Source: Candidatus Stahliibacteriota bacterium
Lineage (GTDB): Bacteria; Hydrothermota; UBA3072
DNA: 40,567 nucleotides
Assembly (NCBI GenBank): GCA_030668705.1
Contig: DAOVFB010000004.1
Coordinates: 1-40,567, forward strand
Reading direction: 5' to 3'
Shown piece by piece: positions 12,133 through 40,314 of this stretch. The notes under the pieces are model-generated. The model saw nothing but the letters and a program-made list of their open reading frames with translations. It made no database searches and was not told the DNA's origin. The position numbers and the translations under genes were made by a program. Each line of letters starts with the position of its first letter. Positions within the stretch are counted from its first letter, which is position 1.

Positions 12133-12160
12133 TTGACTTTACAATCCCAATAGATATATA
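12133..12160 (+). promoter_or_regulatory. Promoter of the hydrogenase-Hdr operon with inverted repeats
   Basis: TTGACT (12133-12138), 16-bp spacer, TATATA (12155-12160; alternatively TATATT at 12157-12162). The arms TTTTGCAC (12125-12132) and GTGCAAAA (12163-12170) bracket it exactly. Just downstream lie GCAAA-A-TTTGC (12165-12175) and TTTGCAAA (12184-12191). These repeated half-sites are a candidate operator. The leader is about 70 bases long. Confidence 0.6.
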
Positions 12161-12240
12161 TTGTGCAAAATTTGCGAACCTGATTTGCAAAGAGAATTTT
12201 TCTATTATGATATTAGGCAAATAAAGAGAAAGGAGCGAAC

Positions 12241-13212
12241 ATGGGTAAAAAATTGAATATAGCCCTTTACTGGGGTGCTTCTTGTGGGGGGTGTGAAATC
12301 GCGGTTCTGGATACCAATGAAAAAATCCTCAAACTCGCTGAGGTTGCTGATATCGTCTTCTGGCCAGTTGCCATGGATACCAAGTACAAAGATGTGGAAA
12401 AAATGGAAAACGGGAGCATCGATATCACACTCTATAACGGTGCTATAAGGTCAGAGGAAAACAGGGAAATGGCAGAACTACTCCGTCGAAAATCAAAACT
12501 TCTCATAGCTTTTGGTTCCTGTGCGGTTGATGGATGTATCCCAGGCCTCGGTAACTTATATAAAAGAGAAGAGGTGCTCGAAAACGCATTCAAAAAAACA
12601 GTGACAACCGATAATCCCAAAGGCATAATTCCTGAGGTGATTCACGGCAAGAGAAAACTTACTCTACCAGAATTAGAACCAAGGGTGAGCACATTACAAC
12701 AGGTTGTTCCCGTGGATGCCTTTATCCCTGGATGCCCTCCCCCAACCGAACTGATAGCAAAGTTTATTGATATTGTAGCGAGTGGAGAGGAAATACCGAA
12801 AGGAGCGAATCTTGCACCGGATATATCGGTCTGCGACGACTGCGACAGAAACCCAAAGGAAGAAAAGATATTACCAGATATCATTCGACCACACAGATTG
12901 GAAAAAGACAATGGAGAGTGTTTCTTGTTGCAGGGAGTTCTATGTATGGGGCCGGTTACAAGGAGTGGATGCAAAACGAGATGTATAAATGCAAACTTCC
13001 CCTGCACCGGATGCATGGGACCAACTTCTAAGGTAACTGACCAGGGAGCGCGTTTTATCTCTGCTATAGGTTCTATAATTGGTGGAAAAGAACTTGATAC
13101 AGACCAGGAAAAGATGAAAGAAATTATTGATAAGATTGATGACCCAATTGGGACATTCTATATGTATACCCTCGCCAGCTCAATCATGGGAGGTAAGAAG
13201 TGGAAAGATTGA
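12241..13212 (+). CDS. mvhG: [NiFe] hydrogenase small subunit, MvhG-like
   Basis: The electron-transfer subunit of a cytoplasmic group 3 [NiFe] hydrogenase. The 323 residues show the proximal-cluster ligands C15 and C18 (ASCGGCE), C94 (FGSCAVDGC) and C165 (PGCPPP). A C-terminal cysteine-rich part (C198, C201, C227, C235, C244, C248, C255, C258) can bind two more clusters, as in F420-non-reducing hydrogenases. There is no Tat signal, so the enzyme is cytoplasmic. AAGGAG lies 6 bases before the ATG. It is the first gene of the eight-gene operon and overlaps the large-subunit gene by 13 bases. The close coupling to hdrABC supports MvhG over the NAD-linked types. Confidence 0.9.
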   Translation: MGKKLNIALYWGASCGGCEIAVLDTNEKILKLAEVADIVFWPVAMDTKYKDVEKMENGSIDITLYNGAIRSEENREMAELLRRKSKLLIAFGSCAVDGCIPGLGNLYKREEVLENAFKKTVTTDNPKGIIPEVIHGKRKLTLPELEPRVSTLQQVVPVDAFIPGCPPPTELIAKFIDIVASGEEIPKGANLAPDISVCDDCDRNPKEEKILPDIIRPHRLEKDNGECFLLQGVLCMGPVTRSGCKTRCINANFPCTGCMGPTSKVTDQGARFISAIGSIIGGKELDTDQEKMKEIIDKIDDPIGTFYMYTLASSIMGGKKWKD

Positions 13213-14684
13213 CAATAGATCCAATTACTCGACTTGAAGGACATGGTAAGATAGAGATATTTCTTGATGATAAGGGTGAAGTAGAGGAAGCGTACCTCCA
13301 GGTTCCAGAGCTCAGGGGTTTCGAAACCTTTTGCAGGGGAAGGCGGGCAGAATTAATGCCACAGCTTACGTCTCGAATATGCGGGGTTTGTCCAGTAGCA
13401 CACCATATGGCATCAACAAAGGCACTGGATATGGCATTCAAAACAGAACCCCCACCCCTTGCCCATAAACTTCGCGAACTTCTGTACATGGGTTACATCA
13501 TCTATGACCATATACTACATTTTTATTTCCTTGCCGCACCGGATTTTATAGTAGGTCCAACTTCTCCAAAGGAGAAGCGAAATATCCTGGGAATACTGGA
13601 GAAGATTGGAGTAGATACGGTAAAAATGGTAATAAAACACAGGGCATATGGGCAAAAGATCACGGAGATCCTCGGTGGCAAAGCAACTCATCCGGTCTCT
13701 GGTCTGCCAGGTGGAGTCACCAAAGGACTCAATGAAGAGGAGAGAAAAGAGATAGAGGATATGGCAAAATCGTGTCTTGGTTTTGCCCAGGAGACAATAA
13801 AGATATTCAAGGACACTGTACTCTCGAACAAGGACTATAAAAAACTTATCACTTCAAAAGACCTTGCTCTATCTACCTATAACATGGGCCTCGTTGATGA
13901 GGATAATAAACTCAATTTCTACAGGGGCAGGGTCAGAGTTACCGCACCTGATGGCTCTGAATTTTTAAAGTTTGACCAACAAGACTACAGAGATTTAATT
14001 GCTGAAAGGGTCCTTCCCTGGAGTTACGTCAAGGTCCCCTATCTTAAAAAAGTGGGGTGGAATGACTTAACCGATGGTTTTAACTCGGGACTCTATAGGG
14101 TGGGACCACTTGGCAGACTAAATGCAGCAGATGGATTAAACACACCCCTTGCCCAGAAGGAATTCGAAAAGATGATAGAATTCTTCGGGGGTAAACCAAT
14201 AAACAATACTCTTGCCTATCACTGGGCAAGGGTTATTGAGATACTCAACGCCTCTGAACGGGCAGTTGAACTGGCAACAAATGATGATATCACAGGGGAA
14301 GATCTGAAAAACCCTATAGCTGCTGAAACCCCTGGGAGAGGAGTTGGAATTGTAGAAGCCGCCAGAGGAACCCTTATTCACGATTACACGGTGGATGAGA
14401 ATGATCTAATCAAAGATCTAAACCTGATTGTTGCAACGACCAACAACAACGGAGTAATAAATATGGCCATCCGTCAGGCGGCATCTAAATTTATCCATAA
14501 AGGGAAGTATGACGAGGGTATATTTAATATGGTAGAGATGTTCTTCAGAGCTTTCGACCCCTGCATGGCATGCGCATCTCACCAGTTGGGAAAAGTTCCC
14601 CTTGAAATTTCTATAAAAGATAAAGACGGAAATATCATAGATACCATCACAAACTTCAAAAAAGGAGAGCAATGTGGCATTTGA
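13200..14684 (+). CDS. mvhA: [NiFe] hydrogenase large subunit, MvhA-like (group 3)
   Basis: The catalytic H2-activating subunit. The Ni-Fe site ligands are all present: the N-terminal L1 motif RICGVCPVAHH (C61, C64) and the C-terminal L2 motif DPCMACASH (C455, C458). After His461 a tail of 33 residues follows (QLGKVPLEISI...), of the type seen in group 3 enzymes. Whether it is cleaved depends on a maturation protease that is not encoded in this window, nor are the hyp genes. The 494-residue length is normal. The gene overlaps both neighbours (13 bases with mvhG, 11 with hdrC). Confidence 0.93.
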   Translation: MERLTIDPITRLEGHGKIEIFLDDKGEVEEAYLQVPELRGFETFCRGRRAELMPQLTSRICGVCPVAHHMASTKALDMAFKTEPPPLAHKLRELLYMGYIIYDHILHFYFLAAPDFIVGPTSPKEKRNILGILEKIGVDTVKMVIKHRAYGQKITEILGGKATHPVSGLPGGVTKGLNEEERKEIEDMAKSCLGFAQETIKIFKDTVLSNKDYKKLITSKDLALSTYNMGLVDEDNKLNFYRGRVRVTAPDGSEFLKFDQQDYRDLIAERVLPWSYVKVPYLKKVGWNDLTDGFNSGLYRVGPLGRLNAADGLNTPLAQKEFEKMIEFFGGKPINNTLAYHWARVIEILNASERAVELATNDDITGEDLKNPIAAETPGRGVGIVEAARGTLIHDYTVDENDLIKDLNLIVATTNNNGVINMAIRQAASKFIHKGKYDEGIFNMVEMFFRAFDPCMACASHQLGKVPLEISIKDKDGNIIDTITNFKKGEQCGI

Positions 14685-15078
14685 GCTATCAAAGGAATCA
14701 GTCCAATCCGACTTTATTAAAAAGATTGAGGAATTATCCGGCGAAGAGATAAGTGCCTGTTACCATTGCGGAAAGTGTTCTGCTGGGTGTCCTTCTGCCA
14801 TGGCAATGGACCTACTGCCCAATCAAATAATACGCGCCATTCAACTCGGTGATATCGAGACCTTAAAGACCTCCAACACCCCCTGGATATGTGCCTCTTG
14901 CGTTACATGCTATGTTAGATGCCCGCGGGGAATAGATCTCTGCAGCATAATGGAAGCCGTTAGACAGATGACATTGAGAACCAATAAAGACCACATAGAT
15001 ATAAAAAAATATACCGGTGAGTTGGCAAGCCTACCACCTATAGCTGTGGTTAGTGCCCTAAGGAAAATGTCATCATGA
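14674..15078 (+). CDS. hdrC: Heterodisulfide reductase subunit C-like iron-sulfur protein
   Basis: A 134-residue protein with two CxxCxxCxxxCP [4Fe-4S] motifs: C29, C32, C35, C39 and C73, C76, C79, C83. This is the HdrC pattern, which wires HdrA to HdrB. The spacing between the motifs and the segment LLPNQIIRAIQLGDIE between them are typical of HdrC. It overlaps the hydrogenase gene before it (11 bases) and hdrB after it (ATGA, 4 bases), so stoichiometric synthesis with both is expected. Confidence 0.92.
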   Translation: MAFELSKESVQSDFIKKIEELSGEEISACYHCGKCSAGCPSAMAMDLLPNQIIRAIQLGDIETLKTSNTPWICASCVTCYVRCPRGIDLCSIMEAVRQMTLRTNKDHIDIKKYTGELASLPPIAVVSALRKMSS

Positions 15079-15953
15079 AGGAAATTATATACTATCCAGG
15101 ATGTACTCTTAAGAATACTGCTAAGAACTTCGAGGATTCAGCTATTGCCTGTTCCGAAGCACTGGATTTTAAACTGCATGAGCTAAAAGACTGGTACTGC
15201 TGTGGAACCGTTTATTCCCTGACGAGTGATGACCTTATGCACCATATTGCAACCGTTCGGAATCTCCTCCGCGTTCAGGAAGAGGGTCAAGAGAGATTCA
15301 CCACCCTGTGTTCGATGTGTTACAACACATTAAAGCGGTCGAGTAAGAGAATAAATGAGAATGAAAATGACAGAGAAACGCTTAATTCCTTCATGGATGA
15401 AGAGGAAAATAACTATGAAGGGAAGGTAGATATAATTCACTACCTTCAAATACTTCGTGATGAGATAGGTTTTGATATAATAAAAGAAAAGGTTAAAAGA
15501 CCCCTCAAAAACTTAAAACTCGCCCCTTATTATGGCTGCCTTCTCCTCCGCCCAAATGAGGTAGCAATAGATGACCCGGATTCGCCCTCTATTCTTGAAG
15601 ACCTTATAACGGCAATGGGGGCAGAGGCGGTTTACTTCCCATTCAAAAACGAATGTTGTGGGGCTTATGAGACTGTGGCAGAGGTTGATTTGGTGGTCGA
15701 AAGAGCACACAATATCATAGGAAACGCCAAAAGAAACGGGGCGGATGCTATTCTTGTCTCGTGCCCACTTTGCGCTTTCAATCTGGACAATAGACAAAAA
15801 GAGGTATTAGAAAAATATCCCGACTTTGAAGGTATTCCGGTTCTCTACTTCACCCAGGCCCTGGCTCTTGCCTTAGGACTTGACCCAGATGTATGCCGTT
15901 TTGATCTTAACTATCAACCGGTAGAAGATTTAGTAAGGGGGATTGAACAATGA
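15075..15953 (+). CDS. hdrB: Heterodisulfide reductase subunit B-like (two CCG domains)
   Basis: The subunit that in methanogens splits CoM-S-S-CoB at two noncubane [4Fe-4S] clusters. Both cysteine-rich CCG motifs are complete: C10, C42-C43, C79, C82, and C154, C193-C194, C229, C232. The active-site machinery is therefore intact, and the protein should reduce a disulfide or a similar high-potential acceptor. The natural acceptor in a bacterium without coenzyme M/B is unknown. At 292 residues the length is normal. It overlaps hdrC and hdrA by 4 bases each. Confidence 0.92.
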   Translation: MKEIIYYPGCTLKNTAKNFEDSAIACSEALDFKLHELKDWYCCGTVYSLTSDDLMHHIATVRNLLRVQEEGQERFTTLCSMCYNTLKRSSKRINENENDRETLNSFMDEEENNYEGKVDIIHYLQILRDEIGFDIIKEKVKRPLKNLKLAPYYGCLLLRPNEVAIDDPDSPSILEDLITAMGAEAVYFPFKNECCGAYETVAEVDLVVERAHNIIGNAKRNGADAILVSCPLCAFNLDNRQKEVLEKYPDFEGIPVLYFTQALALALGLDPDVCRFDLNYQPVEDLVRGIEQ

Positions 15954-17914
15954 AGAGAATGGGATTATTTATCTGCCATTGCGGCACTAATATAGCCGAC
16001 ACCGTAGATGTTGAAAAACTCGCAAAGAAGTTCGAATCCTATCCCGGAATTGTATTCAGCACCAACTATAAGTATATGTGTTCCCATCCAGGTCAAGCCC
16101 TCATAGCAGATGCAATCAAAGAACACGACCTCGATGGAGTAATAGTTGCTGCTTGTTCCCCAATACTTCATGAAACAACCTTCAGAAAACTCGCACGGCA
16201 ATCGGGTATCAATCCGTATCAATGTGAGATAGCCAATATAAGGGAACAGTGTTCCTGGGTTCATAAAGACAAGGAAAAGGCAACCGCAAAAGCCGAGAAA
16301 ATTATAAAGTCCATCATTGAAAAAACCCGATTAAACGAAGATCTAAAACCGATCGAAGTAGATGTAACAAGAAAGGCCCTTGTGATAGGGGGAGGTGTAG
16401 CCGGGATACAGGCTGCACTTGATATAGCAGATGCAGGTTACCCCGTTCTTCTTGTTGAGAAGGAGCCTTCTATCGGCGGACACATGGCGCAGCTCTCGGA
16501 AACTTTTCCCACCCTTGACTGTTCTCAATGTATCCTCACACCAAAGATGGTAGAAGCCGCAACACATCCCAACATAGAATTACTTGCATATTCCGAAGTC
16601 AAATCAGTGGATGGATATGTCGGCAATTTCACCGTAACCATAGAAGAGAAAGCAACAGGAATAGACTGGGATATATGCACGGGATGCGGACAATGTTCGG
16701 AAATATGTCCGATTTCTGTTCCTTCAGAATTCGAAAAGGGATTGGGAAACAGACCCGCTATATATACCCCGTTCCCCCAGGCCGTTCCCAATAAACCAAT
16801 AATCGATTCAGAAAATTGTCTGGAGATGAAGACCGGGGCATGTGGACTTTGCGTTAGAGAATGTGAAGCTGAGGCTATCAATTTCAATATGGAACCTACA
16901 TATAGGGAAGAAGAAGTAGGTGCAATCGTCGTAGCTACAGGATATGAACTCTATCCTATAATGAATCTTGGTGAGTACGGTGGAGGAGAGATAGAAGATG
17001 TAATAGATGGACTTGCCTTTGAACGTCTTCTATCTTCCTCGGGACCAACAAATGGAAAAATAAGAAGACCAAGCGACGGAAAACTGGTAAAGGATATAGT
17101 GTTCATCCAGTGTGCTGGTTCTCGTGACCCGGAAAAGCACAAGCCCTATTGTTCCAGGATATGTTGTATGTATTCAACGAAACAGGCAATGTTATATAAG
17201 CATAGTGTCCATGATGGACAACCTTACATATTCTATATAGACATACGGTCCGGAGGGAAGGGATACGAGGAATTCGTGGAAAGGGCTCAGCGAGAAGATA
17301 AGGTTATATACATCCGTGGAAAGGTATCAAAACTATATAGAGAAAATGGTAAGGTCAAAATAGCAGGGGTCGATACTATAGCAAATAAACCAATAGAATT
17401 AGAAGCAGATCTTGTAGTCCTTGCTATGGCAATGATTCCAACCACTGGTACCGAAAAACTTGCCAATGTTTTGAAGTTGCAAACAGACGCAAACGGATTC
17501 CTCCAGGAAACCCACCCAAAGTTGCGACCCCTTGAAAGCACCACGGCAGGGTTTTATTTAGCCGGTTGCAGCCAGTCACCAAAGGACATACCGGATACCG
17601 TAAGTCAGGCATCTGGTGCTGCTGCGAAAGTTGTGGGTCTCTTCTCCGGAGAGTATCTCCAGTTAGAACCCACCATAGCCACCGTTGATGAGGAACTCTG
17701 CAGCGGATGTGGAATATGTATCTCCGTTTGTCCCTACAGTGCGCGAGAAATGGATATAGGGAAGGGTATTGCAAAAGTAAATGAAGCGCTTTGTGTGGGA
17801 TGTGGAGCGTGTGTCGTTGCATGTCCATCAGGGGCTACGGATCAGAAGAATCTTACCGACGAACAGATATCGTCTATGGCAAAGGCAATCCTAAAAGGAG
17901 AGAAGGAAAGTTAA
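15950..17914 (+). CDS. hdrA: Heterodisulfide reductase subunit A-like bifurcating flavoprotein
   Basis: HdrA carries the FAD at which electrons from H2 are split between ferredoxin (low potential) and HdrB (high potential). Features in order: an N-terminal cysteine-containing domain (1-130), the FAD-binding GGGVAGIQAALDIADAG (147-163), the HdrA-typical LDCSQCILTPKM (189-200), an inserted [4Fe-4S] motif CTGCGQCSEICP (243-254), a further cysteine group C290-C305, and two C-terminal ferredoxin motifs (C584-C594 and C615-C625). The length of 654 matches methanogen HdrA. All cysteines that I expect are present; no selenocysteine codon is needed. Confidence 0.94.
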   Translation: MKRMGLFICHCGTNIADTVDVEKLAKKFESYPGIVFSTNYKYMCSHPGQALIADAIKEHDLDGVIVAACSPILHETTFRKLARQSGINPYQCEIANIREQCSWVHKDKEKATAKAEKIIKSIIEKTRLNEDLKPIEVDVTRKALVIGGGVAGIQAALDIADAGYPVLLVEKEPSIGGHMAQLSETFPTLDCSQCILTPKMVEAATHPNIELLAYSEVKSVDGYVGNFTVTIEEKATGIDWDICTGCGQCSEICPISVPSEFEKGLGNRPAIYTPFPQAVPNKPIIDSENCLEMKTGACGLCVRECEAEAINFNMEPTYREEEVGAIVVATGYELYPIMNLGEYGGGEIEDVIDGLAFERLLSSSGPTNGKIRRPSDGKLVKDIVFIQCAGSRDPEKHKPYCSRICCMYSTKQAMLYKHSVHDGQPYIFYIDIRSGGKGYEEFVERAQREDKVIYIRGKVSKLYRENGKVKIAGVDTIANKPIELEADLVVLAMAMIPTTGTEKLANVLKLQTDANGFLQETHPKLRPLESTTAGFYLAGCSQSPKDIPDTVSQASGAAAKVVGLFSGEYLQLEPTIATVDEELCSGCGICISVCPYSAREMDIGKGIAKVNEALCVGCGACVVACPSGATDQKNLTDEQISSMAKAILKGEKES

Positions 17915-18364
17915 ATGAGTGATTTCGAACCAAATATTGTATGTTATGTATGCAAGTGGTGTACCTATGCGGGAGCAGACCTTGCAGGAACATCCAGATT
18001 AAAGCATAAACCAAACACTACGAATATTCGTCTTATGTGCTCATCTCGACTTAATATGGAACAAATACTAATGAGCTTTAGAGAGGGCGCAGATGGTGTA
18101 TTTGTTGGGGGATGTCATCCGGGTGATTGTCATTATATAAATGGTAACTATAAAACCCAAAATAGAATTATAATAATGAAACGCGTCCTAAAAGAACTCG
18201 GGATAGAACCAGAGCGACTGCGGCTGGAATGGGTTTCTGCGAATGAAGGGAGAAGATATATAGAAGTCATTGATGATTTCATTGAAGAAATAAGGACTTT
18301 AGGTCCCATCAAACTTCCTTCAAAGGAGAATTTAATTGAAAAGGAGGTTCCCATAAATGGATGA
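17915..18364 (+). CDS. mvhD: MvhD-like hydrogenase iron-sulfur subunit
   Basis: A 149-residue adaptor with a [2Fe-2S] cluster that passes electrons from the hydrogenase to HdrA. Conserved family residues: C10, C13, C16 (CYVCKWC), C42 (RLMCSSR), C67 and C72 (GGCHPGDCHY). The family segment ADLAGTSRLKH is well kept. The start codon directly follows the hdrA stop (TAAATG). Its position immediately after hdrA, and the absence of fused domains, fit the Mvh type rather than the FlxA type. Confidence 0.92.
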   Translation: MSDFEPNIVCYVCKWCTYAGADLAGTSRLKHKPNTTNIRLMCSSRLNMEQILMSFREGADGVFVGGCHPGDCHYINGNYKTQNRIIIMKRVLKELGIEPERLRLEWVSANEGRRYIEVIDDFIEEIRTLGPIKLPSKENLIEKEVPING

Positions 18365-19034
18365 AGAGATGGTAAGAATTTATATAATGGGAAAGGAATA
18401 CAAAGTTCCCGGTAATTTAACCATTTTGACTGCTCTGGAGTATGCTGGTTATCAGATCATAAGAGGAGCGGGGTGCAGGGAAGGGTTCTGTGGTGCCTGT
18501 GCAACGGTATACCGTATGAAGGATGATTATAAACTGAAGGCAGATCTTGCCTGTCAGACCAAGGTAGAAGACGGCATGTACCTTGCACAACTTCCCTTTG
18601 TTCCTGCGCAAAAGTCAATATACGATATCAATAAACTGAAGCCTGAAGTAGGAACATTCCAGGAGCTATACCCCGAGAATTTTAAGTGTGTGAGTTGTAA
18701 CACATGCACAAAAGCCTGTCCTCAGGATATAGAGGTTATGGACTATGTTCAGGCGATAGTCCGCGGGGATATCAAAAAAGCAGCGAATATCTCCTTTGAT
18801 TGTATAATGTGTGGTCTCTGTGCTCTCCGTTGTCCTGCAGAAATTGTACAATACAATGTTGGTATACTTGCGCGCAGGCTTTACGGGAAATACTTAGCCC
18901 CGAGGGCAAAACATACAAGAAAACGAATAGAAGAACTGGAAAAGGGCATGTGGGAAGATGAGGTAAATAAACTAATGAAGCTATCAAAGAAAGCATTGAA
19001 AGAGAAATACAAAAGCAGGGACAAGGAGGCTTAG
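18357..19034 (+). CDS. Fumarate reductase/TfrB-like iron-sulfur subunit
   Basis: A 225-residue protein with an N-terminal [2Fe-2S] ferredoxin domain (C40, C45, C48, C66; spacing CX4CX2CX17C) and a dicluster domain with two full CxxCxxCxxxCP motifs (C111-C121 and C149-C159). Ordinary SdhB/FrdB proteins bind one [3Fe-4S] cluster; here both C-terminal motifs keep four Cys. Methanogen TfrB also carries HdrB-like CCG domains at its C-terminus; this protein does not, but hdrB is present in the same operon. The last 45 residues are highly charged. It overlaps mvhD by 8 bases and has AAGGAGG 9 bases before the ATG. Partner of the flavoprotein encoded next. Confidence 0.85.
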   Translation: MDEEMVRIYIMGKEYKVPGNLTILTALEYAGYQIIRGAGCREGFCGACATVYRMKDDYKLKADLACQTKVEDGMYLAQLPFVPAQKSIYDINKLKPEVGTFQELYPENFKCVSCNTCTKACPQDIEVMDYVQAIVRGDIKKAANISFDCIMCGLCALRCPAEIVQYNVGILARRLYGKYLAPRAKHTRKRIEELEKGMWEDEVNKLMKLSKKALKEKYKSRDKEA

Positions 19035-19035
19035 G

Positions 19036-20697
19036 ATGGCAATGAAGGGTGGATATACCGATAAAATGTGGGATTCGATAAAGAAGGTGGAAGCTACACG
19101 TAAAAGCAGATTAGGAAAGCAGCAGCCTTCAATGAGCTTAGAAGAGGGAGAAAAACTACTCAAAAAATATCATCCCGATTATAAAAAAGGTAATACAAGA
19201 GAGATTAAGATTGGCCCATCAAAAGGAGACCCTGTTGTTCAGGAAGTTGCAAATCTGCTTGAAGCTTATCCTCGTATTGATCCAGAAAAAATTGACCTTT
19301 CCAGAGTAGATTATAAAACGGATGTGCTGGTAATCGGTGGGGGGGGTGCAGGCACATCTGCAGCACTACTCGCTTGCGAGAATGGCGCCCATGTAACCAT
19401 CGCAACGAAGTTGAGACTGGGCGATGCCAATACTATGATGGCGCAGGGCGGTATCCAGGCTGCTGATAAGGAAAATGATTCTCCTGCAATTCATTATCTT
19501 GATGTTATCGGTGGCGGGCATTTTGGCAATAAACCGGAATTAGTGAAAGCTCTGGTAATGGATGCACCCAGAATTATAGGATGGCTTGAGGACCTGGGTA
19601 TGATGTTTGATAAAGAAGAAGATGGGACAATGATTACCAGACACGGGGGAGGAACATCAAGAAAGAGGATGCATTCTGCAAGGGATTATACAGGTGGAGA
19701 GATAATGAAAACCCTAAAAGATGAGGCACTGAATAACCCCAAAGGAATAGAAATCATAGAGTTCTCTCCTGCTGTTGAGTTATTGCTGGATAAGGATGGC
19801 AAAACCTGTGGTGCAATACTCTTTAATCTTGAGACTGAAGAATACCTTACCGTGCAATCAAAGGCTGTAATCATTACTACAGGTGGCTTCGGAAGACTCC
19901 ATATACAGAAGTTCCCCACAACCAATCACTATGGAGCAACAGCTGATGGTCTTGTATTGGGATATAGAGCAGGCGCGAAATTGGCATTCATGGACACAGT
20001 CCAGTATCACCCCACAGGGGCCGCTTACCCGGAGCAAATTGTTGGACAACTGGTAACAGAAAAGATACGGAGTGCCGGAGCAGAACCAGTAAATGTCCAC
20101 GGTGAACAATTCGTATATCCATTGGAACCACGGGATATCGAAGCTGCAGCACTGATTCGAGAAGTTGAAAGGGGGAATGGCATGGAAACCCCTACAGGGA
20201 TGAAAGGTATCTGGTTGGATGCTCCTTTAATTGAGATGAAGGAGGGAAAAGGGTCCATAGAGAAAAATTTCCCCGCAATGTTCAGACAGAATATGAGATT
20301 CGACATCAATATGGCAAAAACCCCCATTTTGATATACCCCACTCTGCATTATCAAAACGGCGGACTGGAAATATCTTCTGACTGTTCCACATCTGTTCCA
20401 GGTCTATATGTAGCAGGGGAAACGAGTGGCGGAGTACATGGGAGAAACAGGCTTATGGGGAATTCACTACTCGATGTACTTGTATTCGGGCAAAGGGCCG
20501 GGAAGGCAGCCAGTAAATACGTGAAGGGAGTTTCACCCGGGAAACCAACACTAAAGCATGTAAGAAAATATATAAAAGATTTAGAAAAAACAGACATTCC
20601 AAAGGACCGCATTGCTCCTATGGTTCTACCGGATTATACCCGTGGGGAGACAAAGAAGAGACAACTTACCAGCCATTACCTGGGTACACTCAGGTAA
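19036..20697 (+). CDS. Fumarate reductase/TfrA-like FAD flavoprotein subunit
   Basis: A 553-residue flavoprotein of the succinate dehydrogenase/fumarate reductase/L-aspartate oxidase superfamily. The FAD site is VLVIGGGGAGTSAALLA (97-113), with a covalent-FAD-type region (GGIQAAD, 138-144). The dicarboxylate-site residues are present by hand alignment with FrdA: H325 in HPTG, R345, H438 (PTLHYQNGG) and R472 (GRNRLMGNS). Two oddities: about 95 residues precede the FAD domain, where relatives have 5-20, and the C-terminal helical domain is missing. AGGAGG lies 7 bases before the ATG. Fumarate reduction fits best. Aspartate oxidase is less likely because no nadA/nadC is nearby and an iron-sulfur partner is encoded next to it. 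Confidence 0.85.
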   Translation: MAMKGGYTDKMWDSIKKVEATRKSRLGKQQPSMSLEEGEKLLKKYHPDYKKGNTREIKIGPSKGDPVVQEVANLLEAYPRIDPEKIDLSRVDYKTDVLVIGGGGAGTSAALLACENGAHVTIATKLRLGDANTMMAQGGIQAADKENDSPAIHYLDVIGGGHFGNKPELVKALVMDAPRIIGWLEDLGMMFDKEEDGTMITRHGGGTSRKRMHSARDYTGGEIMKTLKDEALNNPKGIEIIEFSPAVELLLDKDGKTCGAILFNLETEEYLTVQSKAVIITTGGFGRLHIQKFPTTNHYGATADGLVLGYRAGAKLAFMDTVQYHPTGAAYPEQIVGQLVTEKIRSAGAEPVNVHGEQFVYPLEPRDIEAAALIREVERGNGMETPTGMKGIWLDAPLIEMKEGKGSIEKNFPAMFRQNMRFDINMAKTPILIYPTLHYQNGGLEISSDCSTSVPGLYVAGETSGGVHGRNRLMGNSLLDVLVFGQRAGKAASKYVKGVSPGKPTLKHVRKYIKDLEKTDIPKDRIAPMVLPDYTRGETKKRQLTSHYLGTLR

Positions 20698-20712
20698 ATT
20701 TAAGTTCACCGC

Positions 20713-20741
20713 TTGACAGAGCGAATGAGTTTGAATATAAA
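20713..20741 (+). promoter_or_regulatory. Promoter of the ferredoxin gene
   Basis: TTGACA (20713-20718), 17-bp spacer, TATAAA (20736-20741), 16 bases after the flavoprotein stop codon. The leader (about 50 bases) contains the hairpin CCCAG-CAGAC-CTGGG (20747-20761) and an AAGGAGG ribosome site. No terminator separates it from the operon, so read-through transcripts are also likely. Confidence 0.7.
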
Positions 20742-20798
20742 GATAGCCCAGCAGACCTGGGTTAGGCTTAGTAAGCTAAATCAAAAAAGGAGGTCTTG

Positions 20799-21074
20799 AT
20801 GCCAATTGTAATTTACGATTACAGCAAATGCACAGGTGTAGCCGAATGCGCCGAGAGTTGCCCTGTTGATATTCTTGAGGGAAGTGCCAATGGAAGATGG
20901 TGTAAGCCGGTTGACGATGAAGTTGAAAACAATGAAGTTCTACAGAAATATTATGATGAGGTGGACCAGAACGACAGTTCGGATCTCATTCTAAGGTTTG
21001 AAATGCCCTCCTGCATTGAATGTAGAACCTGTGAGGCAGTCTGTCCAGAAAGTGCTATTGAAATAGAATCGTAG
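20799..21074 (+). CDS. Two-cluster ferredoxin with one ligand missing
   Basis: A 91-residue ferredoxin. The C-terminal motif is complete (C72, C75, C78, C82). In the N-terminal motif C11, C17 and C21 are present, but the second cysteine is replaced by Val14, so the first site should hold a [3Fe-4S] cluster as in 7Fe-type ferredoxins. A 50-residue acidic insertion separates the motifs. I start at ATG 20799, 5 bases behind AGGAGG; the TTG at 20796 would be too close. It follows the Hdr-hydrogenase operon and is a natural candidate for the low-potential electron acceptor or a partner of the reductase pair. Confidence 0.85.
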   Translation: MPIVIYDYSKCTGVAECAESCPVDILEGSANGRWCKPVDDEVENNEVLQKYYDEVDQNDSSDLILRFEMPSCIECRTCEAVCPESAIEIES

Positions 21075-23847: not shown

Positions 23848-25359
23848 TTACTCACCGAATACGAGTGCCTGAAATTTCCAGAGTTCTGCGTCTTTCCAGG
23901 CATCACGCGGAAGACCAGCCTTATAGCAGGTGTGCTCCAGAAAGGTTTCTCTATCCCATCCTTGCTCCACAGGGACCTGGGGAAGTAATAATCCACTCAT
24001 AAAACCCTTTCGTATCATAAGACCATCCCGTCCAACCTCTATCTTTTCTGTATCCTCCACTTTTTGGAAAGGGGTGAGCACAGATATCTCTATTTCTATC
24101 TCGTCAATTTCTGATGGTTCCAACGGAGGAAAACGAGGGTCTCTTGTAGCAGCGGATATAGACATATCCCGTACAGCAAGATAGAGTGGTTCCTCTGCCC
24201 TAATGAACCCTATGCAACCCCGCAGGCGCCCATTCTCCTTAAGGGTTACGAATACCCCCAACTTTTCCTTTAACTTCTCTGACTTGGTGTTGAATTCCGG
24301 AATAACTCCGTCCTTCACGTATCCACTTATTGTTTCCCTTGCAATAGTCAGAAGCTCTTTCTCCTCTGCTTCTGTTAGTTCATAAACACCTGATACTTCT
24401 TCCCTTTCCACTTTCTTCTCTTCTTCCCATTCCTCTCTTTCGGCACCGTTATCCTTCCCCTTCACTATTGCCCATGCACCATATCCCACTACATAACCAC
24501 CCTCTTGCCCTGTTACATCTCTGGAATTCGTTCGATGGAGCAACATTGCTTTATTACCTCCAAGTTTCTCACAAGTCTGCATCATCACAACAATAGCTGA
24601 CATTCCACAGGCCGCGCACTCCCCGGAGCTTCTCTTCACTCTATCATACTTAACCATTGCTCTATAATCCATATCTTTAATATATTTGTCCACATTATTT
24701 GTGACTTCTTTTGCTTCCTCATACTTATAACCATGATATAAATCCGAAGAAGCAATTATTACCCAATTTTTCCTTTCTTTTAGTTCCTGGGATAAAGCGT
24801 TTATGAGGATACTACAAACCTTTAAATCATCTGAATTAAAAACAATTGGGACAATCTTGAAGCCCTTCAGGGTTTCCTGCAGAAAAGGCAACTGAACTTC
24901 CAATGAATGTTCTCTTAAATGTCCTTCAGGATAATAATCAATAAGATTGCTGTAACCTTCCAGTCGAGATGCAAGTTCTTCGTCAATCATCACCTCGCCA
25001 AGAGGTGTCTTCCAGGCTCCTTTATCGTATACAGAAAAACCACTTATATAAGCATGATGAGAAGGGCCAAGCAATATCACAAGGTCAATATCCTTCCCTT
25101 CTAAGGTTTTGTAGGCATAAGCTTGCGTCCCACCAGAAAAGGGATAACCTGCATGCGGTGAGATTAACCCTAAAACTTCTCCGTCAATATCAACAGTTGC
25201 GTTATCCATATATTGCCTTACCGTGGAACGCAAGACCTCTGGATTTCCAGGATAGAAACTTCCAGCTACAACTGGTTCTCTAATCATTTTTGCCCCCTCT
25301 TTGCAATTGATAGAAAAAACAACAATAATTATTGATATAATGACTTTAAATCGCTTCAT
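23848..25359 (-). CDS. MEMO-AMMECR1 fusion with signal-like N-terminus (AmmeMemoRadiSam B+A)
   Basis: A 503-residue fusion. Residues 25-300 are a MEMO domain (IREPVVAGSFYPGNP, SPHAGYPFSGG, GPSHH, ECAACGMSA), related in fold to LigB-type dioxygenases. Residues 330-500 are an AMMECR1 domain (RLRGCIGFI, RDPRFPPL). A charged linker (EREEWEEEKKVEREE) joins them. The two families co-occur with a radical SAM gene in the AmmeMemoRadiSam system of unknown chemistry; none is seen here. The first 24 residues (MKRFK, then a hydrophobic run, SINC) look like a lipoprotein signal. Both this ATG (GGAG 7 bases upstream) and an internal one at 25287 (GAGGGGG 6 bases upstream, the usual MEMO start) have ribosome sites, so two forms are possible. 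Confidence 0.87.
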   Translation of the reverse strand: MKRFKVIISIIIVVFSINCKEGAKMIREPVVAGSFYPGNPEVLRSTVRQYMDNATVDIDGEVLGLISPHAGYPFSGGTQAYAYKTLEGKDIDLVILLGPSHHAYISGFSVYDKGAWKTPLGEVMIDEELASRLEGYSNLIDYYPEGHLREHSLEVQLPFLQETLKGFKIVPIVFNSDDLKVCSILINALSQELKERKNWVIIASSDLYHGYKYEEAKEVTNNVDKYIKDMDYRAMVKYDRVKRSSGECAACGMSAIVVMMQTCEKLGGNKAMLLHRTNSRDVTGQEGGYVVGYGAWAIVKGKDNGAEREEWEEEKKVEREEVSGVYELTEAEEKELLTIARETISGYVKDGVIPEFNTKSEKLKEKLGVFVTLKENGRLRGCIGFIRAEEPLYLAVRDMSISAATRDPRFPPLEPSEIDEIEIEISVLTPFQKVEDTEKIEVGRDGLMIRKGFMSGLLLPQVPVEQGWDRETFLEHTCYKAGLPRDAWKDAELWKFQALVFGE

Positions 25360-27278: not shown

Positions 27279-29137
27279 TGCTGGAGAAAATAAAATTCCC
27301 AAAAGACCTAAAAGAACTTAAACTCGAAGATTTACACAGCCTGGCTTTTGAAATGAGGGAAAGGATAATCGATGTAGTTTCAAAAAATGGTGGCCACATT
27401 GCGCCCAGCTTAGGCACGATAGAACTTACGATTGCGCTTCTTAAGGTTTTCAGTCCCCCCAGGGATAAGATTATCTGGGATGTATCGCACCAGTCATATG
27501 GTTATAAACTTTTAACGGGAAGAAATGAAGGCTTTGATACGCTCCGTCAATTTGGGGGAATAAGTGGATTTCTCTCCAGGGACGAATCTATATATGACGC
27601 CTTTGGCGCTGGTCATGCGAGCACATCACTTTCGGCAGCTCTTGGATTTGCGGCGGCTCGTGATAGGAAAGGCAGTGATTATGAAGTGGTTGCTGTTATA
27701 GGCGACGGAGCCCTCACCGGTGGTATGGCAATGGAGGGACTAAACCAGATAGGTTATCATAATAACAAATTGCTGGTAATCCTTAATGATAACCGAATGT
27801 CAATCGCAGAGAATGTAGGAGGGATGCGAGAATACCTTACCCGTCTCCAATCAGGGGATATCTATAACAAAGTTATGGAAGATGCATGGGATCTCTTAGA
27901 AAAACTCCCTGAGGCGCTCGGGAAGAAGACAAAAAGAGCCGCAAAGAAATTAAGTGAGGGGCTTAAGAATCTAATCGTCCCAAATATTCTTTTTGAAGAA
28001 CTGGGGCTCTCCTACTTTGGTCCAATAGATGGACATGACATACGAGAACTGATAATACTTCTATCGAACTTGAAGAAACTAAAAGGGGCAAAACTCCTTC
28101 ACATCATAACAGAAAAAGGCAGAGGATATCAGCCAGCCGAGGACGAGCCAACTCTGTTTCATGGCCTTGGGCCCTTTGATAGAGAAACTGGAGAACCACT
28201 CAAAAAAGAAGGCTTGAAAAGCTACTCCACTATCTTTGGTGAGGCCATAGTCGAAGAAGCAAGGAAGAATGAGAATATCATAGCAATTACGGCTGCCATG
28301 ACAAAAGGTACGGGTCTCGTGGCTTTCAAGGAAGAATTCCCGGATCGCTTCTTTGATGTCGGGATAGCCGAACAGCACGCCGTAACATTCGCAGGAGGTC
28401 TTGCGTCAGCGGGTATGTGTCCTGTTTGTGCCATCTATTCCACATTCTTGCAGAGGGCTTTTGATCAGATAATACATGACATAGCCCTCCAGAGATTGCC
28501 TGTCATATTCTGCCTTGACAGGGGTGGGCTCGTTGGCGACGATGGGCCAACCCACCATGGAGTGTTCGACCATAGTTACCTCAGGATGATACCAAATATG
28601 GTCATAATGGTCCCTCGGGATGAGGTTGAGTTAAAGCGTATGTTTAAAACAGCAGTCGAATATCAGGAGGGACCTGTCGCGATAAGATACCCGAGAGGGG
28701 CTGTCGAAGGGATACCGTTTCCGGATAAGATTGCCCCTATTACAATAGGTAAAGGGGAAGTTCTACGTAAAGCGGGTGAACCACTTATACTCGCCGTGGG
28801 TCCGATAATCTATGAGATTCTTGAGATAGTAAAAGATTTTGATGATATTGACCCAACTGTAGTAGATGTAAGATTCGTTAAACCACTTGATGACGAACTT
28901 ATACTGAAACTCGCGAGCACTAGAAATAAGATAATAACAGTAGAGGATAATGTGATTAGCGGTGGGTTTGGAAGCGCTGTTCTGGAACTATTGAGCAATA
29001 AGGGGTTAAAAAAGGATGTTCTGCGAATAGGTATACCTGATCGATTTATAAGACATGGCAATAAAGAGGAACTTCTGGAAACAATTGATATGGGAAAAGA
29101 TGACCTCAAGGAGAGAATAAAAGAGTTTATGAAATGA
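27275..29137 (+). CDS. dxs: 1-deoxy-D-xylulose-5-phosphate synthase
   Basis: A ThDP-dependent enzyme making DXP from pyruvate and glyceraldehyde 3-phosphate, the first step of the MEP isoprenoid route. The 620 residues contain WDVSHQSYGYKLLTGR, the ThDP motif GDGALTGGMAMEGLN...NDNRMSI, YFGPIDGHD, FFDVGIAEQHAVTFAGG (with the catalytic Glu), DRGGLVGDDGPTHHG and IRYPRG. Normal length. It is preceded by ATGATG, where the first ATG overlaps the stop of the PAP2-like gene. Confidence 0.96.
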   Translation: MMLEKIKFPKDLKELKLEDLHSLAFEMRERIIDVVSKNGGHIAPSLGTIELTIALLKVFSPPRDKIIWDVSHQSYGYKLLTGRNEGFDTLRQFGGISGFLSRDESIYDAFGAGHASTSLSAALGFAAARDRKGSDYEVVAVIGDGALTGGMAMEGLNQIGYHNNKLLVILNDNRMSIAENVGGMREYLTRLQSGDIYNKVMEDAWDLLEKLPEALGKKTKRAAKKLSEGLKNLIVPNILFEELGLSYFGPIDGHDIRELIILLSNLKKLKGAKLLHIITEKGRGYQPAEDEPTLFHGLGPFDRETGEPLKKEGLKSYSTIFGEAIVEEARKNENIIAITAAMTKGTGLVAFKEEFPDRFFDVGIAEQHAVTFAGGLASAGMCPVCAIYSTFLQRAFDQIIHDIALQRLPVIFCLDRGGLVGDDGPTHHGVFDHSYLRMIPNMVIMVPRDEVELKRMFKTAVEYQEGPVAIRYPRGAVEGIPFPDKIAPITIGKGEVLRKAGEPLILAVGPIIYEILEIVKDFDDIDPTVVDVRFVKPLDDELILKLASTRNKIITVEDNVISGGFGSAVLELLSNKGLKKDVLRIGIPDRFIRHGNKEELLETIDMGKDDLKERIKEFMK

Positions 29138-29940
29138 AAGAGAGAACATTAAAAGAAACCATTAAAATCTCAGGAATAGGGGTTCACACCGGTAGGTCTT
29201 CCTCTGTTTACCTTCATCCGGAAGAAAACGGAGGAATAAGATTTATAAAAGAAGGAACTATTATACCTGCTATCATTGACTCAGTGGTGGAAACAGATCG
29301 CGGGATTGTTCTATCATGTGAAGGTAGGAAAATCTACACAGTAGAACATCTGCTCTCTGCGCTTTTCGGTTGCGGAATCGACCATCTCGCAATAGAAATA
29401 AAAGGTGACGAAGTACCCGCACTGGACGGAAGCGCATACCCTTTCATATCTGCATTTGAGGAGGTTGGATTTTCAAGCCTTCCGAATGAAAAAGAGAAAA
29501 AATACCTCGAAGAGAGTTATGGAGTAGAAGGTAGGGGTTGTTTTGCCTTTGCACAGCCACAGGATACACTTACAATCCAGTACATCATATCATATAATCA
29601 TCCCCTACTTTCATATCAGGAATATCGATATAATGGAAAGTCCAGTTTCATAAAAGAAATAGCAAGAGCAAGAACCTACGGGTTACTTTCGTGGAAGGAA
29701 CAGCTCCAATCAAGGGGATACGCTCTTGCAGCCTCAGAAGGTAATACATTGGTCTATGATGGAAAGGGTGTCATGAATACTCCCCGTTTTCCTGACGAAG
29801 CAGTGAGGCATAAAGTATTAGACTTCCTCGGTGATTTATATCTTGTCAGGCCCGTTTCTATTGGTTCGTATATTATTGCTCGTGGTGGCCACCATTTACA
29901 TATTGAATTGTTAAAACAGATAAAAGGGAGTGAATATTGA
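29134..29940 (+). CDS. lpxC: UDP-3-O-acyl-N-acetylglucosamine deacetylase
   Basis: The zinc enzyme of the first committed step of lipid A synthesis. The 268 residues include the zinc His in VEHLLSALFGCGIDHL, the LDGSA motif (LDGSAYPFI), ARARTYG, a second zinc motif RHKVLDFLGDLYL (His and Asp), and the catalytic His near the end (GGHHLHIELL). Slightly shorter than E. coli LpxC (305). It shows directly that the organism makes lipopolysaccharide or a related lipid. Overlaps dxs by 4 bases and fabZ by 4. Confidence 0.95.
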   Translation: MKERTLKETIKISGIGVHTGRSSSVYLHPEENGGIRFIKEGTIIPAIIDSVVETDRGIVLSCEGRKIYTVEHLLSALFGCGIDHLAIEIKGDEVPALDGSAYPFISAFEEVGFSSLPNEKEKKYLEESYGVEGRGCFAFAQPQDTLTIQYIISYNHPLLSYQEYRYNGKSSFIKEIARARTYGLLSWKEQLQSRGYALAASEGNTLVYDGKGVMNTPRFPDEAVRHKVLDFLGDLYLVRPVSIGSYIIARGGHHLHIELLKQIKGSEY

Positions 29941-30377
29941 AGTTTGATATAGAAAAAATTATAGATATAATGCCACACCGTTATCCATTCCTGCTTCTCG
30001 ATCGTGTGGAACAGATAGGGGATGACGCGGTTATCGGGATAAAGAATGTCACCTATAATGAACCATTCTTTCAGGGACATTTCCCGGGTGATCCAATAAT
30101 GCCCGGGGTCCTTATTATAGAATCAATGGTTCAGGCAGGAGGATTTCTCCTGCTCAACAAGATGGATAATCCAAAGAAGAAGTTGGTCTACTTCACATCC
30201 ATAAAAAGAGCAAAATTCCGCCATCCAGTGAAACCCGGTGATGTATTGCGCCATGAGGTCAAACTGGTTACCTTTCGTTCTAACTTTTGCAAACTAAAAG
30301 GTAAATCTTTTGTAAATGATACGTTGGTAGCCGAAGGTGAATTCACTGCTGCAGTAGCAGACAGAAAGGGCTCCTAA
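29937..30377 (+). CDS. fabZ: 3-hydroxyacyl-ACP dehydratase FabZ
   Basis: Dehydrates 3-hydroxyacyl-ACP in fatty acid synthesis and thus competes with LpxA for its substrate. The 146 residues have IMPHRYPFLLLDRV, the catalytic His in QGHFPGDPIMPGVL and the Glu in ESMVQAGG. The start is TTG at 29937, overlapping the lpxC stop (TTGA), with AGGGAG 6 bases upstream; the protein begins MKFDIEKI, normal for the family. No ATG is available near that position. Confidence 0.95.
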   Translation: MKFDIEKIIDIMPHRYPFLLLDRVEQIGDDAVIGIKNVTYNEPFFQGHFPGDPIMPGVLIIESMVQAGGFLLLNKMDNPKKKLVYFTSIKRAKFRHPVKPGDVLRHEVKLVTFRSNFCKLKGKSFVNDTLVAEGEFTAAVADRKGS

Positions 30378-30378
30378 G

Positions 30379-31140
30379 TTGAAACACATACACCCTGATG
30401 CAAAATTGGATAAGGATGTGCGTATAGCTCCGGGTTGTGTAATAGAAAGGGATGTAGAAATTGGAAGCGGGACCACAATTGATACAGGTGTAATCGTAAA
30501 GAGTAGAGTAAAAATAGGAAGGGATAATGAGATCCATCCCTATGCAGTCATTGGCGATACCCCCCAGGACAAGAATTACAAAGGCAATAGGGGTAGGGTC
30601 GTTATTGGCGACTCCAATATAATAAGGGAATTTACAACTATACATGTGGCTGTAGGTGTAGAAAAGCAAACCGTAATTGGAAACGAAAATTACATAATGG
30701 CGTACTGTCATATAGCACATAATTGCCGAGTGGGGAATCATGTCCTTATGGTTAATGGGGCAACACTCGGCGGATATGTCGAAGTGGAAGACTATACCTA
30801 TATATCAGCTTTCGTCCCGGTTCATCCGTGGGTAAAAATAGGAGCTTATTCTATAATAGGAGGGGGACTCAGAATAACAAAGGACCTGATACCTTTTGCA
30901 CTTGCGGCAGGTTCTCCTCTTCGAATCATATCTCCTAATTTCATTGGACTTAGAAGGAACGGGTTCGAAGGTGACAGGATTGAGAATATAAAACAGGCTT
31001 ACCGCATACTCTTCCGTTCAAAGTTGAACACCGGCCAGGCATTGAAGAAACTCAAGGCAGAATTCGGTGGGGATGAAGACATCGAGAGGATAATCGCATT
31101 TATAAATAACTCCCGAAGAGGAATCGTGAAAGGTGGTTAA
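30379..31140 (+). CDS. lpxA: UDP-N-acetylglucosamine acyltransferase
   Basis: Attaches the 3-hydroxyacyl chain to UDP-GlcNAc, the first reaction of lipid A synthesis. The 253 residues form a left-handed beta-helix of hexapeptide repeats (for example VRIAPGCVIERDVEIGSGTT), then HIAHNC with the catalytic His region, VHPW (VHQF in E. coli) and an alpha-helical C-terminal domain. The start is TTG at 30379, one base after the fabZ stop, with AAAGGG 8 bases upstream. The order lpxC-fabZ-lpxA is widespread; lpxD is not in the window. Confidence 0.94.
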   Translation: MKHIHPDAKLDKDVRIAPGCVIERDVEIGSGTTIDTGVIVKSRVKIGRDNEIHPYAVIGDTPQDKNYKGNRGRVVIGDSNIIREFTTIHVAVGVEKQTVIGNENYIMAYCHIAHNCRVGNHVLMVNGATLGGYVEVEDYTYISAFVPVHPWVKIGAYSIIGGGLRITKDLIPFALAAGSPLRIISPNFIGLRRNGFEGDRIENIKQAYRILFRSKLNTGQALKKLKAEFGGDEDIERIIAFINNSRRGIVKGG

Positions 31141-31914
31141 ATGATAGACGATATAAAAATATCAAACGCTATACTTAGAAGGGGTTTAAAAGAACTCCAG
31201 GAAGCTACTGATTCTGAGGTGGTTATTGTTGGGGCAGGACCTTCAGGGCTCTCTGCTTCCTATTATCTCGCAAAGGATAATATCAATGTGACAATCTTCG
31301 AAAGAGCACTAAAACCCGGTGGTGGAATGCCTGGTGGCGGAATAGGATTACCTGTAATCGTTGTTCAGAAGGAAGGTCTGGAAATCCTGGGAGAGTTCGG
31401 GATATCACACCAATCTTCAGAAGAAAAAGGTTATTACACAGCTGATTCCTTAGAAAGCACAGCAAAGTTAGTGGCAAAAGCCATAGATAAAGGTGTAAGG
31501 ATTATTAATCTAATGACAGTAGAGGATGTTATGGTTAGAGATGACCAAGTATGTGGAGTTGTCATTAACCGAACACCAATCAAAATGGCAGAGTTACTCA
31601 TCGACCCATTAAGTATTCGAGCCCGATTCGTCGTTGATGCAACCGGCCATGACACCGAAGTAGTCAAAACACTCCTGAAGAGAAAGAATTTAAAACTGAA
31701 TACACCATCCGGTGGGATCGAAGGTGAGGGTCCGATGTGGGCAGAAGAGGGAGAAAAAAACATTCTTTCAGATACGAGGGAAGTATTTCCAAATCTCTAC
31801 GTTGCGGGTATGGCTGCCACTGCTGTCTTCGGCTCGCCAAGAATGGGCCCTATATTCGGAGGAATGCTCCTTTCCGGAAAGAAAGTTGCGAAACTGATAA
31901 AGGAACGATTATGA
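31141..31914 (+). CDS. Thi4-family thiazole synthase-like protein, variant active site
   Basis: A 257-residue FAD-fold protein of the Thi4 family (ADP-thiazole synthase; archaeal members also annotated ribose-1,5-bisphosphate isomerase). Rossmann motif VVIVGAGPSGLSAS (27-40), the family loop GGGMPGGGIGLPVIVVQ (60-76; relatives mostly have MWGGG), DATGHDTEVV and the C-terminal GSPRMGPIFGGMLLSG. The residue before IDP at 154-156 is Leu153, where yeast Thi4 has the sulfur-donor Cys205 and methanogen enzymes have His. It therefore cannot be a suicide enzyme and may not be a typical sulfide-dependent one. The ATG follows directly after the lpxA stop; deoC overlaps its end. Confidence 0.82.
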   Translation: MIDDIKISNAILRRGLKELQEATDSEVVIVGAGPSGLSASYYLAKDNINVTIFERALKPGGGMPGGGIGLPVIVVQKEGLEILGEFGISHQSSEEKGYYTADSLESTAKLVAKAIDKGVRIINLMTVEDVMVRDDQVCGVVINRTPIKMAELLIDPLSIRARFVVDATGHDTEVVKTLLKRKNLKLNTPSGGIEGEGPMWAEEGEKNILSDTREVFPNLYVAGMAATAVFGSPRMGPIFGGMLLSGKKVAKLIKERL

Positions 31915-39777: not shown

Positions 39778-40314
39778 TTAAAAATTATCTTCTTCTCGTG
39801 TAAAATCAGTAATCGGATATTTCCCAAAACAATCATATATCCATTCCTCTCCTCTCTTCTTTACCCAATCACCAAAACTTGAAAATTTAAAGGTTTTTAA
39901 ATTTCTAATACCACCTATATAGCCGTGCTTTATTGGGTTCTGATGGATATAATTAAAATGCTTCCAGTAATCCTGTTCATTTTTTACACAGTAATCCCAA
40001 TATTGATACCAGACTTGTCGACCTGGCTTTTTATCAATTTTATTTACCTCAATAGCACTCTTGCCGTGGATAGCCGCAATTACCCGAGGTAAAAACTTTC
40101 CTGAAGTAGTTTTAAAAATCAGGTGGTAATGGTTATCTAAGATTACCCAGGCCTTAAGAGAATATTTATAGTGGCGTAAAACTGTAAAAATCAATTCTTT
40201 TAGTATATTTTTTTTGAATTTATTATTTAGGTAAGCTTTCTTGTGAAAAGTCCCCGCGGTTAGAAAGTAATATTGCTGGTCCAGGTAGATATGTGTTGGA
40301 CGATGCTTTTCCAT
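39778..40314 (-). CDS. REP-associated tyrosine transposase (RAYT, Y1/IS200-like)
   Basis: A 178-residue single-strand HUH transposase. The metal-binding His-x-His is in VILDNHYHLIFK (about 57-68), and the catalytic tyrosine is in FNYIHQNPIKHGY (about 120-132), the RAYT form of the Y1 motif. These domesticated relatives of IS200/IS605 transposases recognise GTAG-tagged hairpins and are thought to spread them. Exactly such hairpins flank the gene as identical direct copies. No TnpB gene and no IS ends are present. The promoter TTGACA-N16-TAAAAT ends 6 bases before the ATG, without a ribosome site, so leaderless translation is predicted. Confidence 0.88.
   Translation of the reverse strand: MEKHRPTHIYLDQQYYFLTAGTFHKKAYLNNKFKKNILKELIFTVLRHYKYSLKAWVILDNHYHLIFKTTSGKFLPRVIAAIHGKSAIEVNKIDKKPGRQVWYQYWDYCVKNEQDYWKHFNYIHQNPIKHGYIGGIRNLKTFKFSSFGDWVKKRGEEWIYDCFGKYPITDFTREEDNF

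Follow-up and report, generated by a model that had tools for sequence, protein, structure and literature searches.

A hydrogenase-heterodisulfide reductase operon with an adjoining fumarate reductase-like pair in a WOR-3 bacterium: a probable soluble route from H2 to fumarate

Which compound serves as the high-potential electron acceptor of bacterial Mvh-Hdr, the hydrogenase-heterodisulfide reductase system first known from methanogens? Mvh-Hdr genes have been reported in bacteria that are not known to contain coenzymes M and B (CoM and CoB). The question is raised by an operon of Candidatus Stahliibacteriota bacterium (phylum WOR-3; NCBI GenBank assembly GCA_030668705.1), whose metagenome-assembled genome of 1.89 Mb is 93% complete. 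The window, i.e. the whole stretch of DNA that was analysed, comprises 40,567 nucleotides of contig DAOVFB010000004.1 (C75). Eight contiguous genes occupy positions 12241-20697 of its + strand in the order mvhG-mvhA-hdrC-hdrB-hdrA-mvhD-tfrB-like-tfrA-like, the last two being referred to here as the tfrBA pair. We propose, with a probability of roughly 0.57, that this operon encodes a soluble, quinone-free, bifurcating H2:ferredoxin/fumarate enzyme, in which HdrBC would relay electrons to TfrBA. An interpretation of this kind, made earlier from the DNA alone (the sequence-only reading), is plausible and appears better supported than before. Protein families were assigned with Pfam and NCBIfam models and by comparison with chains of solved structures, and the features are as follows (FAD, flavin adenine dinucleotide; pLDDT, predicted local distance difference test).

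12241..13212, + strand: mvhG, small subunit of a [NiFe] hydrogenase (Oxidored_q6; top NCBIfam model VhuG, 184 bits)
13200..14684, + strand: mvhA, large subunit of a [NiFe] hydrogenase (VhuA, 413 bits; 7t2r_D and 5odc_F matched over almost full length)
14674..15078, + strand: hdrC, with two [4Fe-4S] clusters (Fer4 dicluster models; HdrC and QmoC models, 65 bits)
15075..15953, + strand: hdrB, with two CCG domains (TIGR03288, 188 bits; alignment to 8rvu_b)
15950..17914, + strand: hdrA, subunit with FAD and multiple [4Fe-4S] clusters, proposed bifurcation site (5odc_A, 694 bits, residues 3-640)
17915..18364, + strand: mvhD, predicted to transfer electrons from hydrogenase to HdrA (FlpD, 166 bits; 5odc_D, 170 bits)
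18357..19034, + strand: TfrB-like iron-sulfur (Fe-S) subunit of 225 residues (Pfam and NCBIfam matches; cysteine conservation; structure model with pLDDT 90)
19036..20697, + strand: TfrA/FrdA-like flavoprotein (NCBIfam matches; residue alignment with FrdA; structure model with pLDDT 88.7, closest fold match FrdA, 1kf6)
20799..21074, + strand: ferredoxin-like protein, which may be the last gene or a unit of its own (likely start ATG 20799, with GGAGG 5 bases before it)

Most scores of the operon proteins do not reach the curated equivalog cut-offs, which is to be expected in a lineage so distant from methanogens. Gaps between the eight genes measure, in order, -13, -11, -4, -4, 0, -8 and +1 bp, which bears out the overlapping gene order described in the sequence-only reading. 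These are translational-coupling distances throughout and would count for joint function of the products. That reading had started the unit at 12133, a position that is a mere promoter-like match (TTGACT-18-TATATT); such matches are as frequent in shuffled sequences as in this region (20.1 vs 21), and the first gene begins at 12241. It had also listed a ferredoxin after the pair. This gene is present and lies about 100 bp 3' of the eight-gene run; its membership is doubtful, because among relatives it is present at 77% in genome G125 and was not found in genome G128.

The first six genes correspond to the methanogen MvhADG-HdrABC complex, in which MvhA, MvhD, HdrA and HdrB each match a chain of the solved structure (5odc) over almost full length. 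The metal-binding cysteines of MvhA, MvhD and HdrB are kept: both nickel motifs (RICGVC and DPCMAC) can be read in the mvhA product, and all ten CCG cluster cysteines of HdrB align with those of 8rvu_b. The hdrA gene is the only one found in the genome to encode a full-length HdrA, and a role of its product in bifurcation is supported by its relatedness, over the full length, to the HdrA that bifurcates. In the methanogen complex the high-potential acceptor is CoM-S-S-CoB, whereas here a fumarate reductase-like pair stands in the same operon.

In the proposed mechanism, MvhAG would oxidise H2 and MvhD would carry the electrons to the FAD of HdrA, which would split them, one passing at low potential to ferredoxin and the other at high potential to HdrC and HdrB. 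From HdrBC the electrons would pass through the [2Fe-2S] and two [4Fe-4S] clusters of the TfrB-like subunit to the FAD of the TfrA-like subunit, where fumarate would be reduced to succinate. The net reaction would be 2 H2 + Fd(ox) + fumarate -> Fd(red) + succinate (Fd, ferredoxin), and HdrB would act mainly as an electron relay rather than as a site of disulfide reduction.

The flavoprotein has the residues expected of a fumarate reductase. H325, E342, R345, R366, H438 and R472 are invariant in all 50 homologues, and align with the substrate and catalytic residues of E. coli FrdA. At the position of the His that binds FAD covalently in FrdA there is Asn132, a replacement that is family-wide. 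FAD that is bound non-covalently is associated with reduction of fumarate and with poor oxidation of succinate. The part that matches solved relatives (from near residue 90) is preceded by some 90 N-terminal residues, an extension with invariant positions of its own. Two other assignments were considered and rejected. L-aspartate oxidase (NadB) is disfavoured by a His in place of the Glu of its TREGG motif and by a score of 283 bits vs a cut-off of 453, and a true NadB is encoded on contig C144. A membrane-bound quinol:fumarate reductase is disfavoured by Asn132 and by the absence of any Sdh_cyt anchor match in the genome (FrdC/FrdD-type anchors were not searched).

The TfrB-like protein contains 12 Fe-S cysteines, which would provide the ligands for one [2Fe-2S] and two [4Fe-4S] clusters; in an alignment of 54 homologues 11 of them are invariant and C45 is nearly so. 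As the sequence-only reading had stated, it lacks a CCG domain in domain searches, and the CCG domains of the operon are in the separate hdrB. Three proteins of this operon, the Fe-S subunit (19-108), HdrC (120-222) and HdrB (263-470), align one after the other along the curated model for the TfrB of methanogens. The simplest reading would be that HdrBC and the Fe-S subunit together do what TfrB does as a single chain in methanogens. The thiol:fumarate reductase TfrAB of Methanothermobacter resembles the present system in two respects, as its flavoprotein belongs to the same superfamily, with the fumarate-site residues matched here, and the three parts of its TfrB correspond to the TfrB-like protein, HdrC and HdrB. 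It differs in that its TfrB includes the CCG (thiol) domain, and both proteins of the window score far under the Tfr cut-offs (44 of 385 bits for TfrB, 328 of 718 for TfrA). No TfrB-HdrB fusion occurs among 132 extracted homologues; the long open reading frames among them (358 and 504 residues) look like upstream read-through.

The tfrBA pair is widespread. At least 589 stretches were confirmed in one scan of species genomes, and the best 80 of these span many phyla, both bacterial and archaeal. Within WOR-3, 90 of 147 genomes carry an orthologous pair. The Fe-S gene precedes the flavoprotein gene in all 133 cases. The neighbours could be classified for 122 loci: 71 pairs lie beside hdr or mvhD, 16 beside mvhA/G, 16 beside fumarase only and 7 beside EtfA or acyl-CoA dehydrogenase, and the other 12 have no neighbour of these kinds. 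The neighbours identified as fumarase, Etf, acyl-CoA dehydrogenase and 2-oxoacid oxidoreductase were verified with curated models. Linkage to hdr or mvh genes therefore prevails (87 of 122), and the outcome that the sequence-only reading had named as refuting it, a pair mostly without such neighbours, is not observed; constant linkage, for which it had suggested a test, does not hold, as 35 loci have neither. The linked share is 23 of 47 classifiable loci in WOR-3 and 64 of 75 in the other set, which was picked by flavoprotein similarity and not by neighbours. The eight-gene order of the window recurs in G128 and, with small open reading frames inserted, in the Neomarinimicrobiota-type loci L105, L124 and L126. 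In L126 a single array comprises fumarase beta upstream, mvhGA, hdrCBA, mvhD, tfrB, tfrA and a malic enzyme-like open reading frame downstream. In a cultured relative, Desulfofundulus thermobenzoicus (L109), hdrC, hdrB, tfrB and tfrA directly follow one another. At least 10 changes of the mvhA/G label are needed on the tree, and hence gain or loss of the hydrogenase module has occurred repeatedly. The sequence-only reading had supposed a narrower class, and the hydrogenase is only one of several inputs.

Fumarase genes adjoin the pair in many of these relatives, and fumarate is therefore the likely substrate. Reduction of another unsaturated acid or acyl compound would be compatible with the diversity of the family, one clade of which stands beside EtfA and acyl-CoA dehydrogenase, and with flavoprotein scores under every curated cut-off shown for fumarate reductase, succinate dehydrogenase (FRD/SDH) and NadB. 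The conservation of all dicarboxylate-site residues, the frequent fumarase linkage, and the separately encoded NadB together with the His that replaces Glu of TREGG make such a substrate very improbable.

Several further arrangements were observed around the pair in other genomes. Paralogous tfrBA genes with EtfA and/or acyl-CoA dehydrogenase occur in WOR-3 (L041, 8212-10494; L048, L051, L055, L064) and in Dehalococcoidia (L135, L136), and several WOR-3 genomes have both this paralogue and a copy linked to fumarase. The paralogue could be a variant that is tied to Etf and has a different partner or substrate. In many loci a protein of about 370 residues is encoded between mvhD and tfrB (L035, 11021-12163; L095, L102, L107, L111, L117). 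It has only 4Fe-4S matches and a sub-threshold match to FrhB_FdhB_C, and may represent a module, so far unrecognised, that feeds electrons into Hdr-Tfr. Contig C5 of G128 (L033, L034) carries two Hdr-Tfr systems of different lineages back to back, hdrA-mvhD-hdrC-hdrB-tfrB-tfrA adjoining the window-type mvhGA-hdrCBA-mvhD-tfrBA. Finally, tandem korAB-type genes come after hdrA-mvhD-hdrC-hdrB-tfrB-tfrA in L074, L078, L080, L083 and their relatives, where the synthesis of 2-oxoglutarate may draw on both succinate and reduced ferredoxin.

A link between the pair and HdrB is also seen across genomes and in the HdrB tree. HdrB is encoded in 87 of 90 pair-bearing WOR-3 genomes vs 13 of 57 without the pair (Fisher p 4e-22, without correction for common ancestry). 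A clade of 48 rows with full support (100 in the Shimodaira-Hasegawa-like approximate likelihood ratio test, SH-aLRT) holds 35 of the 40 pair-adjacent HdrBs, both bacterial and archaeal. The WOR-3 HdrBs inside it are 15 of 15 linked and 4 of 20 sampled unlinked ones, a comparison that is fair only within the phylum, as unlinked HdrBs were sampled from WOR-3 only, and in which L034 (the linked HdrB of G128) and L060 were assigned to the linked class by hand for the Fisher test.

The same evidence bears on the possibility that the operon encodes two separate, co-transcribed enzymes, with Mvh-Hdr reducing ferredoxin and a small disulfide, and TfrBA being fed by reduced ferredoxin (perhaps that of 20799) or by another carrier. 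Roughly every second WOR-3 locus has the pair away from hdr, for instance by fumarase with mvh-hdr elsewhere, and HdrB retains all CCG cysteines, as expected of a disulfide reductase. Such a division is at odds with the operon overlaps, with the dedicated HdrB clade, with the composite alignment of the TfrB model and with the failure to find a DsrC; ferredoxin-driven fumarate reduction would, moreover, presumably waste low-potential electrons. We consider two separate enzymes unlikely. The thiol/disulfide step that the sequence-only reading had allowed for between H2 and fumarate is likewise disfavoured, and would not be needed: the pair itself lacks a CCG site, and a search of the 93% complete genome found no DsrC.

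Against a bifurcating H2:ferredoxin/fumarate complex stand a number of observations. No hdr or mvh gene lies within 7 kb in the 35 loci mentioned above, among them those of a paralogous clade with EtfA and acyl-CoA dehydrogenase neighbours, and the pair can therefore have other partners; the WOR-3 pairs are linked in only 23 of 47 classifiable loci. The structure model of the TfrB-like subunit found no whole-chain match among solved chains in a fold search, and the co-occurrence statistics take no account of common descent. The gene context supports the proposed split of H2 oxidation between ferredoxin and fumarate, but just 16 of the 122 loci have hydrogenase genes near the pair.

With respect to metabolism, the tfrBA pair is the only fumarate reductase candidate found in the 93% complete assembly, in which a search for FRD/SDH flavoproteins gave only the pair and NadB. 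Also encoded are fumarase alpha/beta with malic enzyme, SucCD with the alpha subunit of a 2-oxoacid:ferredoxin oxidoreductase, an RnfC, and a Mrp/NuoD-like membrane complex. The pair would fill the fumarate-succinate step. For the proposed net reaction the standard free energy is about -70 to -85 kJ/mol, and a reversal would need H2 at about 0.01-2.5 Pa, depending on the succinate/fumarate ratio and the ferredoxin potential. Reduction is therefore more likely than the reverse reaction, which agrees with the missing covalent bond to FAD. Operation in reverse in vivo, i.e. H2 formation from succinate and reduced ferredoxin (confurcation) as in syntrophic succinate or propionate oxidation, would be thermodynamically possible at such H2 pressures, and the surrounding enzymes (fumarase, SucCD) are reversible; given the free energy to be overcome and the missing covalent-FAD residue, we regard it as improbable.

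Other genes of the same genome were noted in passing. On contig C110 (L190, 243-4629) an HdrA-like N-terminal half of 299 residues is encoded just before a large NuoF/HydB-like protein, and the two are perhaps another flavin-based bifurcating enzyme. In the window, LpxC/FabZ/LpxA-like open reading frames (29134-31140) and TolC/RND-like ones, all recognised by eye, are what suggests that the host has an outer membrane, as had been read before. A Thi4-family protein (31141-31914, + strand) is encoded immediately 3' of the LpxC/FabZ/LpxA-like genes. One protein (23848-25359, - strand) fuses Memo and AMMECR1 domains behind an apparent lipoprotein signal. By eye, 39778-40314 (- strand) resembles a REP-associated/IS200-type transposase; it has no Pfam match at 1e-8.

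Related systems driven by NADH (reduced nicotinamide adenine dinucleotide) have been proposed before. In Thioflavicoccus and tubeworm symbionts flxABCD-hdrABC is interspersed with korABCD and tfrAB, and NADH-driven bifurcation to fumarate was suggested (PMC6315080), a proposal that has been taken further (PMC11636981). For the 'succinate operon' of Pseudoclostridium thermosuccinogenes, combining Flx-Hdr with fumarate reductase, bifurcation to fumarate has also been proposed, according to a passage of PMC7282089 that cites a 2019 preprint by Koendjbiharie and van Kranenburg. These systems resemble the present one in joining HdrABC to a two-gene fumarate reductase, as HdrABC-MvhD adjoins TfrBA here, and a Clostridium locus of the Flx layout (L114) has homologues of the window's pair next to fumarase. 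They differ in their input, which is NADH via FlxABCD there and H2 via MvhAG here; no Flx genes (NADH-dehydrogenase module FlxABC) are present in the operon, and mvhGA stands in their place. Most clostridial Flx-type HdrBs, moreover, form a clade separate from the pair-adjacent one to which the window's HdrB belongs. Mvh-Hdr itself has been reported in WOR-3 (PMC12542636) and Sumerlaeota (PMC8092238), with CoB-CoM chemistry cited by analogy; the searched passages of both papers do not mention an adjoining fumarate reductase pair. The NADH (Flx) version of the core idea is thus already proposed, and new here is the H2 (Mvh) input, of which no description was found in the open-access literature searched.

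More broadly, and only tentatively, MvhADG-HdrABC-TfrBA could be a modular complex for quinone-free fumarate respiration in several bacterial and archaeal phyla, with interchangeable Mvh, Flx or other inputs and with a dedicated HdrB lineage that acts as a relay rather than as a disulfide reductase; fumarate may then be the missing acceptor of Mvh-Hdr in organisms without CoM and CoB. If true, fumarate respiration with H2 would be carried out by soluble proteins alone, and energy would be banked as reduced ferredoxin. It would also change how genomes of WOR-3, Cloacimonadota, Neomarinimicrobiota, Sumerlaeota and Thermoplasmata are read, in which Mvh-Hdr has been annotated by analogy with methanogens.

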